64,000 nucleotides of DNA. It comes from Pseudogracilibacillus sp. GTDB lineage: Bacteria > Bacillota > Bacilli > Bacillales > Amphibacillaceae. Below are positions 2,688-29,272 of the stretch, in pieces. A model generated the notes under the pieces. That model was given only the letters and a program-made list of their open reading frames with translations. It made no database searches and had not been told where the DNA came from. The translations under genes and the position numbers were made by a program. The stretch spans positions 1-64,000 of the forward strand of contig JAPFDT010000033.1 in assembly GCA_026169815.1 (NCBI GenBank), written 5' to 3'. Position 1 is the first letter of the stretch, and each line of letters opens with the position of its first letter.

Positions 2688-3752
2688 TTATTTTACTTCT
2701 GCTTCTTCTGTTTGTGCAACTACTTTTGCTGCAATACGGTGGTATTCTTGACCATTTGGATGATCTTCCTGATAAACAGCAGGTGCAAACACATCTTCTT
2801 CCTCATATGGCTGTTGTAAAGATAAACGACCAAGCACTTTTGTTTCTAGTACTTCTGCTAATTTATCTCCGCCACCTTTTCCAAAGACATACTCTTTTTC
2901 ACCTGTTAGCTCACTTTCAAAGTAAGACATATTTTCAATTACACCTAAAATAGTATGGTCTGTTTTCATCGCCATTTGCCCAGCACGCGCTGCTACAAAA
3001 GCTGCAGTTGGGTGAGGTGTTGTAACAATTATTTCTTTACATGAAGGAATTAATTCATGTACGTCCATGGCAATATCACCTGTTCCTGGTGGTAAATCGA
3101 GTAATAAGTAGTCTAAATCACCCCACTCTACTTGTTGGAAGAAACTACTTAATACTTTACCTAACATTGGTCCACGCCAAATAACTGGCGAGTTATCTTC
3201 AACGAAAAAGCCCATTGAAATTACTTTTACGCCAAAACGCTCAACAGGAATAATTTTTCCACCACGTTCTACTGGACCTTTTTCAACGCCCATCATTTCA
3301 GGAATACTAAATCCATAAATGTCAGCATCAATAATCCCTACTTTTTTACCTAAACGTTTTAATGCCATTGCTAAGTTTACAGTAACGGTTGATTTACCAA
3401 CTCCACCTTTACCACTAGCAATAGCAATAAATTCTGGTTGCTTTTCTTGTGATAAAATAGAACTGTCTTCTTCACTCGCTGGTTGGAGTTTTTTAATAAC
3501 ATCTTCTGGTAACTCTTCAAAACGTAAACCGACCGTACTTGCACCATTACGTTTTAAAATACCGACAATTTCTTGTTGTAATTGCATTTGTTCGGCTGTG
3601 TTCGGCTTACCGATTGCTAACTTAACACTAACGTGACGCTTTTCTTCATTTACAGAAACAGATACAATACCTTCCGTTTCTTCAAAACTTGTATGTAAAA
3701 ACGGATCTTGAATTGGATTAAGAAGCTGAATGACCTCTTCCTTTGTTATCAT
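2688..3752 (-). CDS. salA: Mrp/NBP35-family P-loop protein (SalA)
   Basis: IAIASGKGGVGKSTVTVNLA deviant Walker A; synteny. Start at internal MITKEEV preferred. Confidence 0.9.
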   Translation of the reverse strand: MITKEEVIQLLNPIQDPFLHTSFEETEGIVSVSVNEEKRHVSVKLAIGKPNTAEQMQLQQEIVGILKRNGASTVGLRFEELPEDVIKKLQPASEEDSSILSQEKQPEFIAIASGKGGVGKSTVTVNLAMALKRLGKKVGIIDADIYGFSIPEMMGVEKGPVERGGKIIPVERFGVKVISMGFFVEDNSPVIWRGPMLGKVLSSFFQQVEWGDLDYLLLDLPPGTGDIAMDVHELIPSCKEIIVTTPHPTAAFVAARAGQMAMKTDHTILGVIENMSYFESELTGEKEYVFGKGGGDKLAEVLETKVLGRLSLQQPYEEEDVFAPAVYQEDHPNGQEYHRIAAKVVAQTEEAEVK

Positions 3753-22838: not shown

Positions 22839-23636
22839 TTATACTTCCTGAATAATTCGTTTAGCTCCTGTATATATGTTGAACGAATCATTGCGAATGA
22901 AACCGACTATCGTTATTCCTAATGCTTCGCCTAATGTTAATGCTAGTTCAGTAGGTGCTGATTTGGACAAAATAATTTCACAGCCAATTTTCGCTACCTT
23001 TAATAAAATTTCTGATGAAATCCGTCCACTGAAAACAATAATCTTTCCTTCCATTGCTATATGATGTTTTAAACAGTAACCGTAAATTTTATCTAACGTA
23101 TTATGACGGCCGATATCCATTCTGCTTAAGATAACACCTTCTGCATCACATAAAGCAGCATTATGAACACCACCAGTATTTTGATAGGTTTGGGCTAAAC
23201 CTTGTAATTCATCCATTAAGTGCAAACAAGTTTCTGGTGTAATGCGCACATTAATATGATGAAATTGCTCAGCTATTAACGCATCATTAGCAAAGACAAA
23301 TCCTTGTCTACTCGCCCCACAACATGACGTGATATAACGTTTATTTTGTAACGATTGCACATATGGGTTCACGTCTTTTGTTGCTACATGAACATAGCCT
23401 TCCGCTTCTTGTATCCAAATGGAAGTGATATCATCGTACTCTTTAATCACAGCTTCAGCTGCTAAATAGCCAATTACCATATCTTCTATATATTCTGGGG
23501 TACAAACAATTGTCACGAACTCTTCGCCATTTAATTTAATCGTCATCGGCACTTCAGTAACAATCCGATCCTTTTTAGAATAAAATGTACCTTGTGAAAA
23601 CTGGATAATATTTCGTTCGATTTCATTAGGTTTCAT
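22839..23636 (-). CDS. fdhD: Formate dehydrogenase accessory sulfurtransferase FdhD
   Basis: ITSCCGASR, MDIGRHNTLDKIYG, SGRISSEILLKVAKIGC. Confidence 0.95.
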   Translation of the reverse strand: MKPNEIERNIIQFSQGTFYSKKDRIVTEVPMTIKLNGEEFVTIVCTPEYIEDMVIGYLAAEAVIKEYDDITSIWIQEAEGYVHVATKDVNPYVQSLQNKRYITSCCGASRQGFVFANDALIAEQFHHINVRITPETCLHLMDELQGLAQTYQNTGGVHNAALCDAEGVILSRMDIGRHNTLDKIYGYCLKHHIAMEGKIIVFSGRISSEILLKVAKIGCEIILSKSAPTELALTLGEALGITIVGFIRNDSFNIYTGAKRIIQEV

Positions 23637-23637
23637 C

Positions 23638-24009
23638 TTACATACCCTCTTCGAGATTTTGATCAAAAATAAAGACAGAAACCGCCATATCTTCTTCGAT
23701 TTTAAAATCAGAAAAAAGATGAACTAACTTTGCCCCAACTAACTCTTCCATCTCCTCAGGACAATCAGTAGCGTACATTGCTTGAATCATCTTCGTTCTT
23801 GCTGAGTGGACCATCTCTTTTCCTTCTGACGTTTTAATAATAAACCGCTCGGTAGGGGTTAAATTACCATATAATTTCGTAATCGCCATATCATCGACAA
23901 AAATCGTCTGAATTCGCTCTGGCCCTTTTCCGAAGCAATCCTTTCGTAATTTTCGTATGATGTCATTAAATTCATGAATCTTCTTTGACATGTTCATCCG
24001 ACCTTTCAC
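23638..24009 (-). CDS. DUF2294 family protein
   Basis: GKGPERIQTIFVDDMAITKLYGNLTPTE. Confidence 0.8.
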   Translation of the reverse strand: MKGRMNMSKKIHEFNDIIRKLRKDCFGKGPERIQTIFVDDMAITKLYGNLTPTERFIIKTSEGKEMVHSARTKMIQAMYATDCPEEMEELVGAKLVHLFSDFKIEEDMAVSVFIFDQNLEEGM

Positions 24010-24484
24010 TTAATTGCTGTCCCATGCCTTTTAGAAAATGGATTCCGAAACCAATTGCACGATTAATGTCAGGGTCGTTTAACATTCTCATTAAATCGAA
24101 TAATTTTACCTTTTGTTCTGTTTCAACAAACTCATGTCCTGAATCGAGCCCTTTCATCGCACTATCGATTACATTTTTAGCCTTTTCTGGATCAGTTGCC
24201 ATCAAACTACTTGTAGCACCTATAATAATATTAAGTAGATTCGTGACAGGTTCTCTAGATACTTGGTCTAAGGTGATTTTTGTAATATCTTCTTTCGCTA
24301 ACAAGATCGCCTCTACTGCTTCTAACATACCTGCTTCATTTAACTCTTCAATAATATCTAATACTTTGTTTAAACTAGCTTCATTATGTGAAAAACGTTG
24401 CTTTAAGTTATCCCATTTTAATTGTACTTCTTCTTGCTCGGTCAATTGCTTGCGATGAATATTCGTAATTGGTTCAGCCATCAT
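23972..24484 (-). CDS. DUF1641 family protein (YrhD-like, fdh-associated)
   Basis: DUF1641-like helical protein downstream of fdh alpha subunit. Confidence 0.8.
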   Translation of the reverse strand: MMAEPITNIHRKQLTEQEEVQLKWDNLKQRFSHNEASLNKVLDIIEELNEAGMLEAVEAILLAKEDITKITLDQVSREPVTNLLNIIIGATSSLMATDPEKAKNVIDSAMKGLDSGHEFVETEQKVKLFDLMRMLNDPDINRAIGFGIHFLKGMGQQLSERSDEHVKEDS

Positions 24485-24496
24485 TACACATCCTTT

Positions 24497-27433
24497 TTAT
24501 TTAGTCGTCAGATGAACATAACCTGGACGGTTCCATTTACGTTCTACTTCAACACCATCTTGTGGATAACGCTTTTTATTACGTGGATTCGTTTTTGGCA
24601 ATGGATTACTGCCATCTGTACTGATAACTTCCATACGCACTTTTGTCTGTTTATATGCTGGAGTATTTGTACGTCCATCATATATAGGACCAGTTAGAAA
24701 GTTAATCGCCGACTCTTTTTCCACTGAGTTCATTGGTAGAAATAGTTCATTTTTCTGAACTCGATCTGTTACAAGCGCTGATAATTTCACTGCACCAAAT
24801 GGAGAAATGAGTCGAACAATCGCACCTGTTGCAATGCCACGCTCTTGTGCCAGTTCTGGAGATACTTCGACAAATATTTCGGGCACTTCAGATTGAATGC
24901 CTGTGGATTTATTCGTCAGATTTCCTTCATGGAAATGTTCTAACATTCTTCCATTATTAATATGAAGATCAAATTCCTCTGCAAAGGTAAATGGTTCTAC
25001 CCAATCAGATAAAGCAAATCGTGCCATTTTATCAGGAAAATCAAAACCATCTTCATATAGAAGTGGCGTACTTTCTCCATCATGACTACCCCACAAGAAA
25101 CTATTCCAGCCTTCTAATACATCATAATTTGCCTTACCAAAAATCGGCGCTAAACTTGCCATTTCTGAAAAAATATCGCTCGGTGAATCATATGTCCAAT
25201 TCGCACCTAAACGATTAGCAATCTCTTGAATGATCCACCAGTCTGGTTTCGAATCACCAAGAGTCGGTAATGCTTGATATAATCTTTGTACACGACGTTC
25301 TGTATTCGTAAATGTTCCTTCTTTTTCGAGTGAAGGTGCTGCTGGTAAAATAACGTCAGCATATTGAGCAGTTCTTGAGAAAAATATGTCTTGTACGACA
25401 AAAAAATCTAAATCAGATAATACTTTATCTACATGGTTAGCATCTGAATCTACTAACGCCATATCTTCCCCTACAAGGTACATTGCCTTCATTTTTCCTT
25501 CTTCAATCGATTGCAACATCCGAATATTATCTAGGCCAGGATTCTCATCAATTGTGACACCATAAGCAGTTTCAAACTTTTCACGAGCAGTTGCATCACT
25601 TACATGTTGATATCCCGGAAGCCAACCTGGGAGCGATCCCATATCACAAGCGCCTTGTACGTTGTTATGACCACGTAATGGATAAGCACCCGTCCCTTCA
25701 CGACGATAGTTACCTGTAGCAAGTAATAAATTTGAAATTGCAGCTGACGTATCAGAACCACCTGTATTTTGTGTAACACCCATTCCCCATAAAATACACG
25801 TTCCAGCTGCATCACGAATCATTTCTGCTATGTCGATGAGCGTAGTTTGGGAAATACCTGTTTTTTCTTCCGCATACTCTAATGTATATTTTTCTAGTAT
25901 TTCTTTATATTCCGTGAAAAAGTGAACATTGTCATCAATAAATGATTGATCATGCCAGTTTTGTTGAATAATATAATTTGTTACCGCCATTAACCAAACT
26001 TGATCTGTTCCTTGTTTCGGACGGACAAATGTATCGGATAACTCAGCCATTTCATTTTTACGAACATCGGAGACGATCAGTTTTTGACCGTGTAATTTAT
26101 GAGCACGTTTAATACGAGTTGCCAGTACTGGATGTGCTTCTGCAGGATTTGCCCCAATAATGATGACTAAGCCAGCTTTAGCAATATCCTTGATCGTACC
26201 AGAGTCTCCTCCCATTCCTACTGTACGCATTAAGCCATCTGTTGCAGGGGATTGACAATATCTCGAACAGTTATCCACGTCGTTCGTCTCAAACACTTGG
26301 CGAGCTAATTTTTGCATGAGGTAATTTTCTTCATTTGTCGTTTTAGACGATGAAATAAACCCAACTGAACCTGGACCATGCTCTGCTTGAATGCCACCTA
26401 ATCTTTCGGAAATGACAGTAAACGCCTCATCCCATGTCGCTTCTACAAACGAGTCTCCTTTACGAATGAGTGGTTTTGTTAGACGTTCTTCAGAATTAAC
26501 AAAATCCCAACCAAATTTCCCTTTAATACATGTTGATATTGCGTTTACAGGACCTTCACTTGGTTCGATTTTTAGGATATCGCGACCTTTTGTCCACACT
26601 TCAAACGAACAACCGACTCCGCAAAACGTACATACTGTCTTCGTCCTTTTCGTTCGAGTTTCCCGCATGGACGCTTCCATTTCAGAGACAGCTAAAATGC
26701 CACTATATCCCGGCTCAAGATATTTTACTAGATCAATCATCGGTTCTGTTAACTCGGATTCCATACCTGTCATAAATCCAGCATTTCCGATCATTGATTT
26801 TTCCATTAATGCATTACACGGACAAACTGTTACACAATGTCCACAACTAACACAGGAAGACTCATTAATTGGTACACCATCATCCCAGATGACAAGCGGT
26901 CGATCCGCTTCCCAATCGATCGATAATGTTTCATTTACTTGTAAATTCTGACATACTTCGACACACTGACCACAAGCAATACATTGATTCGGATCATAAC
27001 GATAAAACGGATGCGACATATCTACTTCACTAGTATCTACTTTAGGTGTGTATGGATATTTTTGATGTTCTATTCCCATCATATCAACAGTGTTATGTAC
27101 TTTACAATTTCCATTATTATTATCACACACTGTACAATACAGTAAATGATTTGCCAAAATTCGATCCATCGCCTCGGTTTGTGATGCTTTTGCTTGAGTA
27201 GATTGTAAGTTTACTTCCATTTGCGGTTGAACTTTTGTTGAACATGCTCTAACAAGCTCTCCATTTGCCTCAACTATACATGTATCACACGTTTCTATTG
27301 GGTCCACTTCAGGTAAATAACAAATTTGCGGATGCTCGATATGATGTTCATTTAATACTTCAATAATCATTGCATCTGGGCTTACGTCATATTCGACTTC
27401 GTTTATTTTTATTTTGAAAACGGAATCCTTCAT
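24497..27433 (-). CDS. Formate dehydrogenase alpha subunit (YrhE/FdhF type, Cys-containing, N-terminal ferredoxin domains)
   Basis: 2Fe-2S and 2x4Fe-4S cysteine motifs, VCTFCGVGCSFEV, NCSRYCQSPATDGL. Confidence 0.95.
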   Translation of the reverse strand: MKDSVFKIKINEVEYDVSPDAMIIEVLNEHHIEHPQICYLPEVDPIETCDTCIVEANGELVRACSTKVQPQMEVNLQSTQAKASQTEAMDRILANHLLYCTVCDNNNGNCKVHNTVDMMGIEHQKYPYTPKVDTSEVDMSHPFYRYDPNQCIACGQCVEVCQNLQVNETLSIDWEADRPLVIWDDGVPINESSCVSCGHCVTVCPCNALMEKSMIGNAGFMTGMESELTEPMIDLVKYLEPGYSGILAVSEMEASMRETRTKRTKTVCTFCGVGCSFEVWTKGRDILKIEPSEGPVNAISTCIKGKFGWDFVNSEERLTKPLIRKGDSFVEATWDEAFTVISERLGGIQAEHGPGSVGFISSSKTTNEENYLMQKLARQVFETNDVDNCSRYCQSPATDGLMRTVGMGGDSGTIKDIAKAGLVIIIGANPAEAHPVLATRIKRAHKLHGQKLIVSDVRKNEMAELSDTFVRPKQGTDQVWLMAVTNYIIQQNWHDQSFIDDNVHFFTEYKEILEKYTLEYAEEKTGISQTTLIDIAEMIRDAAGTCILWGMGVTQNTGGSDTSAAISNLLLATGNYRREGTGAYPLRGHNNVQGACDMGSLPGWLPGYQHVSDATAREKFETAYGVTIDENPGLDNIRMLQSIEEGKMKAMYLVGEDMALVDSDANHVDKVLSDLDFFVVQDIFFSRTAQYADVILPAAPSLEKEGTFTNTERRVQRLYQALPTLGDSKPDWWIIQEIANRLGANWTYDSPSDIFSEMASLAPIFGKANYDVLEGWNSFLWGSHDGESTPLLYEDGFDFPDKMARFALSDWVEPFTFAEEFDLHINNGRMLEHFHEGNLTNKSTGIQSEVPEIFVEVSPELAQERGIATGAIVRLISPFGAVKLSALVTDRVQKNELFLPMNSVEKESAINFLTGPIYDGRTNTPAYKQTKVRMEVISTDGSNPLPKTNPRNKKRYPQDGVEVERKWNRPGYVHLTTK

Positions 27434-27459
27434 GATGCTTTTTCCTCCCTTTTTTTGAT

Positions 27460-27608
27460 AAAAAAACCACCACGATCAAACCCACAACAAATATTGTGTG
27501 ATCATGGTGGAATAGTTTAATAGCAGGACTTGCTAGGATACCAATCCAGTCATATACAAAAATTGCACTTCCATTAGATAGATTTATAACAACACGTTAT
27601 TATAAATC
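27460..27608 (-). promoter_or_regulatory. Structured fdh leader with intrinsic terminator between any possible promoter and the fdhF start
   Basis: Minus strand GATTTATAA..TTATAAATC hairpin, then CCACCATGATCA[CACAA..TTGTG]..TGATCGTGGTGG-TTTTTTT; RBS GGGAGG starts just after. Confidence 0.6.
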
Positions 27609-27663
27609 CATCACCTATAATTATACATATATTACCACTAAAATTAATAAGAAGCAATGTGAA

Positions 27664-28746
27664 TTATGGAGTAATTTTCACTTTAAAAGAGTTAAATTCA
27701 ACTGGTTGACGAGCATCTTGTTTAAACTCTATTTCCTCTTCATTCTCATCTTCATCGAATTCTACACCGCCACCGTCAGTTGGAAGAGCTAAATATGGTG
27801 TAATCGTCACTTCGGTTACATCGGAATCAAGTGGATCAAATTGTTTGTTACTTGTATAAATCATGTCCTCTTTTACACGTTCGCCTGTGACTCCTCCTGA
27901 ATGACTCTTTATTTCATTCCCATCTTGATCTTCCATCTTAAACTCTATCCAACTTGCTCTGTCACGTCCTTCATCTACTAATTTAGCATCCTCGACACTG
28001 TTAAATGAGATACTAGCACCTGAAGCTCCATAAGCAAACTCTGTCACATTCAATTCGATTCCTTCAACCGTTTCTTCATGTTGAACTGGTATCGTTTCAA
28101 TATCATTTGCTTGATTAACAGGTGTTGAGAAATACCACTTTTCACCGTTTTCACCTTGTACTAATAATCCTAAATCAAATTCATTTGGCATCTCGTCTGT
28201 TACCGAAATTGTTTCAATAGCTGTACGAGACGTAGGTGATAATATTTCTTCCCCGTATGAACCCGAACCAGAACTTGGCACCCTTCCATCAATTGTAAAG
28301 TCTATCCCTGAACTAAAATATGCGTCATCCAACGCTTCCTCCGACTCCATTTTTAACCCGATCGTAATATTATTTTTATCATATAACACTTCATCTAACG
28401 TTACGGAAACGCCATTAATTGTCTTCGTTTCTCCGATTTGGTTTGTTAATCCTTTTTCTTGTGCTTGTTGTAAGCCAATTAAATCTGAATCTCCGAAAAC
28501 AGAACCGATAATAGGTATTTTAGATAAGTTACTTGCTACAACTGGTGATTGGTAGGAAATACCAAGTAATATTATAAAAGCAGCCGCAATACTGCATAAT
28601 ACATAAATCGAAGTACGTATTTTATTCCTTTTCTTAGCTTGATTACCTTGTTCCTTTTCAACTACCGCTTTTGCCACACCGAGCTGTATAGCCGTGCGTA
28701 CTTGTTCTTCTGGAAAATGATCATCTTTTTCATATTGATTTTTCAT
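27664..28746 (-). CDS. DUF4179 domain protein, probable anti-sigma factor
   Basis: Single TM, overlaps ECF sigma gene; DUF4179-like N-term. Confidence 0.8.
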   Translation of the reverse strand: MKNQYEKDDHFPEEQVRTAIQLGVAKAVVEKEQGNQAKKRNKIRTSIYVLCSIAAAFIILLGISYQSPVVASNLSKIPIIGSVFGDSDLIGLQQAQEKGLTNQIGETKTINGVSVTLDEVLYDKNNITIGLKMESEEALDDAYFSSGIDFTIDGRVPSSGSGSYGEEILSPTSRTAIETISVTDEMPNEFDLGLLVQGENGEKWYFSTPVNQANDIETIPVQHEETVEGIELNVTEFAYGASGASISFNSVEDAKLVDEGRDRASWIEFKMEDQDGNEIKSHSGGVTGERVKEDMIYTSNKQFDPLDSDVTEVTITPYLALPTDGGGVEFDEDENEEEIEFKQDARQPVEFNSFKVKITP

Positions 28747-29272
28747 TAAATGGATAACTCCTTTCTATTTCTGTTTTTAATAGCTTTCTCGCTCTTCGTA
28801 AATGTGTTTTTACTGTTCCTACAGGTTTCTCGACAATTTCTGATATATCTTTTATCGATAAATCATGGTAATAAAATAAAATGATTGACGTTTGATAAGA
28901 CGGATTTAATTTAGATAATGCCTCACGCACATAGGAAGTGTCTAATTCCTTTTCATCTTTCGTTTCTAGCTTTTTTAATAAAACGTCATCCTCATAGGGA
29001 ATCATTTTCTTCTGTTCACGTAATAATTTATAACATTCGCGAATGAGTATTCTAAATAACCATGTTGAAAAATATTCTGGTTGTCTCAATTGGTGAATGG
29101 ATAATAAAGCATGATACGACGTTTCTTGTATCGCATCTAAGGCATCTTCCTTAGTAGAAACATACTGTAACGCCTTGTAATAAAGCATTCTTTGTTCTAA
29201 AAAAAGTAATGATTCTAATGCTTCTGTATTTCCTTTGATTGCCTTTTTAACTGTTGTAATATTATGTTTCAA
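28730..29272 (-). CDS. ECF-type RNA polymerase sigma factor
   Basis: Sigma70 r2 and r4 (KPVGTVKTHLRRARKLLK). Confidence 0.92.
   Translation of the reverse strand: MKHNITTVKKAIKGNTEALESLLFLEQRMLYYKALQYVSTKEDALDAIQETSYHALLSIHQLRQPEYFSTWLFRILIRECYKLLREQKKMIPYEDDVLLKKLETKDEKELDTSYVREALSKLNPSYQTSIILFYYHDLSIKDISEIVEKPVGTVKTHLRRARKLLKTEIERSYPFNEKSI

Follow-up and report, generated by a model that had tools for sequence, protein, structure and literature searches.

How a gene comes to be transcribed from behind an apparently complete intrinsic terminator is the question raised by the fdhF locus of Pseudogracilibacillus sp., on contig JAPFDT010000033.1, of which positions 1 to 64,000 were analyzed (this whole 64,000-nucleotide stretch is referred to here as the window, and the leader is read on its minus strand). 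An initial annotation had placed a terminator about 30 nt before the start of fdhF, with the ribosome-binding site right after it, and had described a 12-bp stem whose G-U pair forms solely in the minus-strand RNA, an inner 5-bp stem, and a U7 tract. The sequence agrees on each of these points. The terminator reads CCACCATGATCA-CACAATATTTGTTGTG-GGTT-TGATCGTGGTGG-TTTTTTT (27510-27460), in which CCACCATGATCA (27510-27499) pairs with TGATCGTGGTGG (27478-27467) through 12 bp that include one U-G, the same pair being A-C in the plus-strand RNA; the inner stem is CACAA/TTGTG, the T7 run occupies 27466-27460, and 27 nt separate the terminator end from fdhF. As had been argued, the ribosome-binding site and the ATG at 27433 leave no space for a promoter in between.

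We propose that the leader is a transcription attenuator, an assignment that is well supported: a conserved promoter lies upstream, the terminator precedes the ribosome-binding site, and beside it lies a conserved hairpin, P1/P2, that would compete with it. It is equally well supported that the leader belongs to a conserved, previously undescribed attenuator family, wider than first proposed in that it stands before other genes as well and is accompanied by a DUF2294 gene. The best explanation, to which we assign a probability of roughly 0.6 from sequence comparison, is that the DUF2294 protein would act in trans as an RNA-binding antiterminator that stabilizes P1/P2. Regulated attenuation, binding of DUF2294 to the RNA, the antitermination direction, and the signal are what we infer here.

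The leader heads an operon of four genes (Table 1), among them a partner resembling ForE, a protein described in PMC8808070. The DUF2294 protein is a single domain of 117 aa that scores 116 bits against PF10057 (cut-off 23) and matches no other family in Pfam; none of its operon neighbors in the window is BglG-like by the same comparison. Directly upstream of the leader and on the same strand (27664-29272) are an ECF sigma factor gene and its DUF4179/DUF5643 anti-sigma-like partner, whose stop lies at 27664, 5′ of the leader on the minus strand.

Table 1. Features of the fdhF leader and operon in the window
Feature	Position	Strand	Basis or sequence
fdhF, formate dehydrogenase alpha subunit (ForC-like)	24497..27433	-	TIGR01591, 798 bits above cut-off; Pfam
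DUF1641 protein (ForE-like partner)	23972..24484	-	PF07849
DUF2294/MpsC protein, candidate trans-acting leader regulator	23638..23991	-	PF10057, 116 bits; genomic pairing with leader
fdhD, formate dehydrogenase accessory protein	22839..23666	-	PF02634
Probable promoter	27620..27657	-	TTGCTT (27657-27652), 17 nt, TAATAT (27634-27629)
Alternative -10	27625-27620	-	TATAAT
5′ hairpin P0, about 16 bp, 36-nt palindromic	27577..27612	-	Hairpin at same place in Bacillaceae relatives
P1/P2 hairpin, proposed regulatory element, 39 nt	27509..27547	-	Covariance model R1 and covariation
P1	27547-27540 with 27516-27509	-	GGATTGGT with ACTATTCC
P2	27535-27531 with 27525-27521	-	TAGCA with TGCTA
Intrinsic terminator	27460..27510	-	12-bp stem, inner stem, U7
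Ribosome-binding site of fdhF	27444..27450	-	AGGGAGG

The promoter match of the window copy itself (TTGCTT-17-TAATAT) is weak; it aligns with a conserved TTG..-TATAAT block that stands just upstream of the 5′ hairpin in 12 relatives. Judging by sequence, fdhF transcription would probably start from this conserved promoter upstream of the leader and not 3′ of the hairpin. The leader folds far better than its dinucleotide shuffles (z -4.0 over 230 nt and z -4.3 over 182 nt, with 0 of 200 shuffles as good), and the plus strand of the region likewise folds well (z -3.8). A simple terminator scan of the window did not call the 27510-27460 hairpin, probably because the scan restricts loop size and the hairpin is bulged internally. 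Upstream, a 9-bp hairpin had been noted at 27581-27608; the hairpin exists and is considerably larger (Table 1). Two small stems had also been proposed, of which TAGCA/TGCTA is conserved and constitutes P2, while GGAT/ATCC is a local option that was dropped because relatives have lost it; the conserved pairing of GGATTGGT is with ACTATTCC, in P1.

Conservation of the leader before other fdhF genes, on which the earlier reading had been staked, was found in many genera of Bacilli. A nucleotide search of 60 relatives returned one clear match, in Bacillus sp. AFS055030 and again before fdhF; that a single informative match emerged reflects a family that keeps its structure more than its sequence. 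Among 80 fdhF loci taken from genome contigs, the element is found in Bacillus, Priestia, Peribacillus, Gottfriedia, Sporosarcina, Domibacillus, Paenibacillus, Aneurinibacillus, Alicyclobacillus, and others, with variants in Lysinibacillus/Ureibacillus (weak matches to the covariance model R1), Brevibacillus, and Neobacillus. The core is GGAUUGGU-N3-UUAGYA-AGNNN-UGCUAA-N3-ACUAUUCC-ACCAUG followed by the terminator, with P1 formed by GGAUUGGU/ACUAUUCC and P2 by UUAGYA/UGCUAA. The covariation alignment of fdhF leaders that had been called for (A1, 28 sequences) has 93.5% of its cells paired and 15 double changes, values that 0 of 500 shuffles reach on either count and that are much lower in slid controls. 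Across 85 distinct copies of motif plus terminator, P2 is formed by pairings as various as TTAGTA/TGCTAA, AAAGTAC/GTGCTTT, CCAGG/CTTGG, CAGTACTT/AAGTGCTG, and others, and in P1 83 copies leave position 4 unpaired and all 85 have a G-U at position 6; this set was chosen partly by P1 pairing, a selection of which position 4 and the P2 variety are free.

The window copy scores 59.8 bits (E 5e-13) against R1. A search of 300 Bacillales and 400 Bacilli genomes with this model, which was built from the same clades as those searched, gave matches in 56 and 49 genomes, respectively, at the thresholds applied; the weakest among the 56 are attributable to chance or to the wrong strand. Several matches weaker than about E 0.002 (e.g., L156, L157, L160-L164), which have neither terminator nor sensible gene, were discarded as chance. 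Three apparent leaders before DUF2294-FocA (L158, L159, L165) were also rejected: they are without terminators and are antisense matches of a nearly palindromic motif, the true leader lying on the opposite strand and facing fdhF. Rfam 15 yielded nothing credible at the window leader at gathering and permissive thresholds, and no match at 10 fdhF loci and 16 further loci at the gathering threshold, in keeping with the description of the leader as an orphan.

Of the genes behind the leader, fdhF is the commonest, following 72 of the 85 distinct copies. Elsewhere the leader precedes a stand-alone DUF2294 gene followed by PsiE (L141-L143), PsiE-Mrp (L210), Mrp-MobB-x-ModA-ModB-like transporter genes (L145), moaA-moeA (L226, L227), UPF0126/"Gly_transporter" (L144, L146, L207, L216, L237), or a small membrane protein without a Pfam match (L224, L225). 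In AFS055030 it heads fdhF-DUF1641-fdhD, after which moaA, moeA, mobA, and other cofactor genes, named by sequence inspection, continue on the same strand. One locus (L213:400-1100) carries a complete leader and terminator and an fdhF-like start (ATGAATAGTCCTGC) without fdhF, the next gene being UPF0126; it is possibly a decayed fdhF whose leader survives. Another locus with a leader before UPF0126 also holds a Bacillaceae-1 RNA (RF01690; L207:2058-2114, plus strand).

In nearly all loci the leader has a DUF2294 gene beside it. Among 300 Bacillales genomes, 46 hold both the leader and the matching DUF2294 clade, 1 the leader only, 3 DUF2294 only, and 250 neither (Fisher 2e-49, a statistic that ignores phylogeny). 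The matching gene lies within 12 kb of the leader in 51 of 52 cases and within 1 kb in 44, 41 of these being divergent upstream, and PF10057 is present in all 37 additional leader-positive Bacilli genomes. The association is separable from formate dehydrogenase itself, as indicated by a genome without fdhF in which the leader precedes UPF0126 with DUF2294 adjoining (G327), by a genome with three leaders each having its own DUF2294 nearby (G239), and by AFS-type Bacillus genomes (G134, G263, G284) in which a second DUF2294 gene has a leader of its own. In Peribacillus muralis, the 5′ strand of P1 and the leader-type DUF2294 are missing together. Further leader variants lie near most otherwise unpaired DUF2294 genes (G202, G160, G169, G209, G121, G310, G200, G315, G309, G174); at three DUF2294 loci that were searched (G291, G060, G194), no leader was detected.

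The protein family is broader than its leader-linked members, with PF10057 found in 212 of the 300 sampled Bacillales genomes. The AlphaFold model of DUF2294 has a pLDDT of 93.5, and searches with the protein against PDB sequences and with Foldseek gave no convincing solved relative and indicated no RNA-binding fold. Several Bacilli families also have double-domain DUF2294 proteins, encoded in open frames of about 230-290 aa that each match PF10057 twice and show no link to the leaders found (for example, G611:C1:4164634-4165302, G617:C1:907718-909282, and G666:C1:326964-327635). G327 additionally contains, in a 1.4-kb stretch of locus L272, three c-di-AMP riboswitches (RF00379; 2049-2193 and 2927-3065 on the minus strand, 3298-3440 on the plus strand) that surround a YbcI-like DUF2294 gene of a different type and a divergent KdpA-like gene, one of them just upstream of the former.

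A second leader type accompanies another DUF2294 clade, about 40-48% identical to the first. This leader, GGUUUGGCACUUGGCAGCGAUCCUGCUAAAGACU(C)AACCACCG plus terminator, begins a median of 22 nt behind the DUF2294 gene and is followed by an FdhF/YdeP-family oxidoreductase gene (TIGR01701). With model R2, likewise built from the clades in which it was searched, 56 copies were detected across 55 genomes, every copy directly downstream of a second-clade DUF2294 gene. The two leader types never occur together in a genome of the sample. Covariation is modest here (two double changes, with 11 of 500 shuffles as good), so that the fold rests mainly on likeness to P1/P2. About 1.4 kb upstream of DUF2294 in two further loci (L364:4557 and L367:4354, both minus strand), an AGCG..CCUGC element stands before terminators with another stem (CGUCGU...); by sequence, these are perhaps a fourth leader type.

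This pairing also bears on a reading in which P1/P2, perhaps together with the 5′ hairpin, would be a riboswitch that binds a small molecule such as the molybdenum cofactor, molybdate, or a formate-derived compound, DUF2294 being a mere accessory of the pathway. Such a reading would accommodate the conserved unpaired and G-U positions, the presence of cofactor genes and molybdate-type transport genes behind the leader, and the two genomes that have a leader without a matching DUF2294 (G270 and G695, the latter P. whitsoniae). We nevertheless consider it unlikely: P1/P2 spans just 39 nt with little unpaired conserved sequence, there is no Moco RNA match, DUF2294 accompanies the leader even where fdhF is absent, and two leader types track two DUF2294 clades.

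How DUF2294 might act is suggested by the junction of P1 and terminator. In 74 of 85 copies, 2-5 nt of the terminator stem also belong to P1; seven copies scored negative, partly through confusion with another T-run. In the window, the first two bases of the terminator (CC) double as the end of P1. Enforcing P1/P2 there costs 1.6 kcal/mol and removes two basal C-G pairs beside the U-tract, and a factor that fixes the hairpin should thus favor readthrough. With a median of -11 kcal/mol versus -27 kcal/mol for the terminator, P1/P2 is far the weaker structure, which makes a stabilizing factor plausible. The B. subtilis group (L032, L034, L051) shows no overlap, so simple strand exclusion is insufficient as a full account there.

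By default, RNA polymerase that initiates immediately before the 5′ hairpin would tend to halt at the terminator preceding fdhF. Were P1/P2 held, the base of the terminator would be drawn off the U-tract, allowing readthrough into fdhF-DUF1641-DUF2294-fdhD. The holding factor would most likely be the DUF2294 (PF10057/MpsC) protein of the same operon, acting by analogy like LicT or SacT on RAT hairpins. To guess from the genes served, formate/one-carbon or molybdenum-cofactor status would probably be the signal; formate is preferred to cofactor since neither nitrate reductase nor xanthine dehydrogenase genes were seen behind the motif in the loci inspected. An antiterminator encoded within the window operon would produce positive feedback, and the second system, where DUF2294 is encoded before the terminator, would make its protein without passing that terminator.

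The same genomic pairing would arise if DUF2294 instead acted on the leader to promote termination, as a repressor or feedback regulator comparable to PyrR or TRAP. The window gene, lying inside the attenuated operon, would then exert negative feedback, and in leaders of the B. subtilis group P1 might stack with the terminator instead of competing with it. This arrangement seems distinctly improbable given the 2-5 nt overlap in most copies, where stabilization of P1 should weaken the terminator. Antitermination by DUF2294 remains our preferred reading. Extended to the family, the odds seem about even that DUF2294/MpsC is a new RNA-binding, signal-sensing antitermination family in which each clade has co-evolved with its own P1/P2-terminator leader, targeting formate dehydrogenases, related molybdopterin oxidoreductases, and molybdenum-cofactor genes across Bacilli.

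An RNA already reported from B. subtilis very probably corresponds to this element, which the relatives B. halotolerans and B. atrophaeus carry upstream of yrhE (forC2). From the region of that gene in B. subtilis, an Hfq co-purification study obtained a 139-nt peak that heads its table under the label "new sRNA or yrhE leader region" (PMC3574147). The neighboring DUF2294 gene in B. subtilis is probably yrhF. The part of the Hfq report concerning this RNA treats it as an uncharacterized leader or sRNA, with structure, family, gene set, and regulator not given there. Its listing might suggest that the terminated leader works chiefly in trans, as a small RNA; we regard this as very improbable, because the leader always stands before a gene of one pathway with the ribosome-binding site past the terminator, and because leader-type RNAs are enriched in general and most known attenuation leaders behave likewise in the same experiment (PMC3574147). 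Scarcely credible is a plain terminator of the sigma/anti-sigma operon that it follows on the same strand, with fdhF expressed by unregulated readthrough, a reading dropped because the comparative data contradict it: P1/P2 is conserved with covariation, and hairpin plus terminator precede fdhF, moaA, UPF0126, and others despite different or divergent upstream genes.

As to regulation, yrhE transcripts increase with acid and benzoate (PMC2788229), and forCE2 is lowered by ResED (PMC8808070); for Bacillus forCE2/yrhED, the relevant portions of these two reports name only responses to acid, to benzoate, to growth phase, and to ResDE, and they put forward no leader mechanism (PMC2788229; PMC8808070). 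Our proposal offers for this regulation a cis-element with its gene set and a trans-factor that can be tested, as well as a first functional hypothesis for PF10057/MpsC. Should the pairing be right, the few protein families that regulate antitermination by binding RNA would gain a member, and B. subtilis would allow the sensing of formate or molybdenum in Firmicutes to be tested directly.

Among known systems, MpsC of Staphylococcus aureus shares its protein family name (PF10057) with the leader-linked DUF2294; its deletion had no phenotype, it was not a functional part of MpsAB, and no RNA role is proposed in the relevant portion of that study (PMC6689103). The Moco RNA motif resembles the leader in standing before molybdenum-cofactor genes such as moaA. 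Unlike it, the leader is much smaller and lies mainly before formate dehydrogenase genes, and no Moco RNA match was found in the window at E up to 10, as the initial annotation had surmised, nor before moaA or Mrp-MobB at the gathering threshold. In Bacillus, antiterminators of the BglG family (LicT, SacT, SacY) act on a RAT hairpin that partly overlaps an intrinsic terminator. The leader differs from RAT in sequence, although both presumably start with GGATTG, which by itself would not make the leader a RAT, and DUF2294 has no PTS regulation domains and is not of the BglG family; no BglG-family antiterminator was found paired with the leader, whose recurrent neighbor is PF10057. The architecture is nonetheless alike, with a short imperfect hairpin containing unpaired positions placed just before and partly overlapping a terminator, and in the second leader type even the RAT-like order recurs, the presumed regulator gene lying directly before hairpin and terminator.
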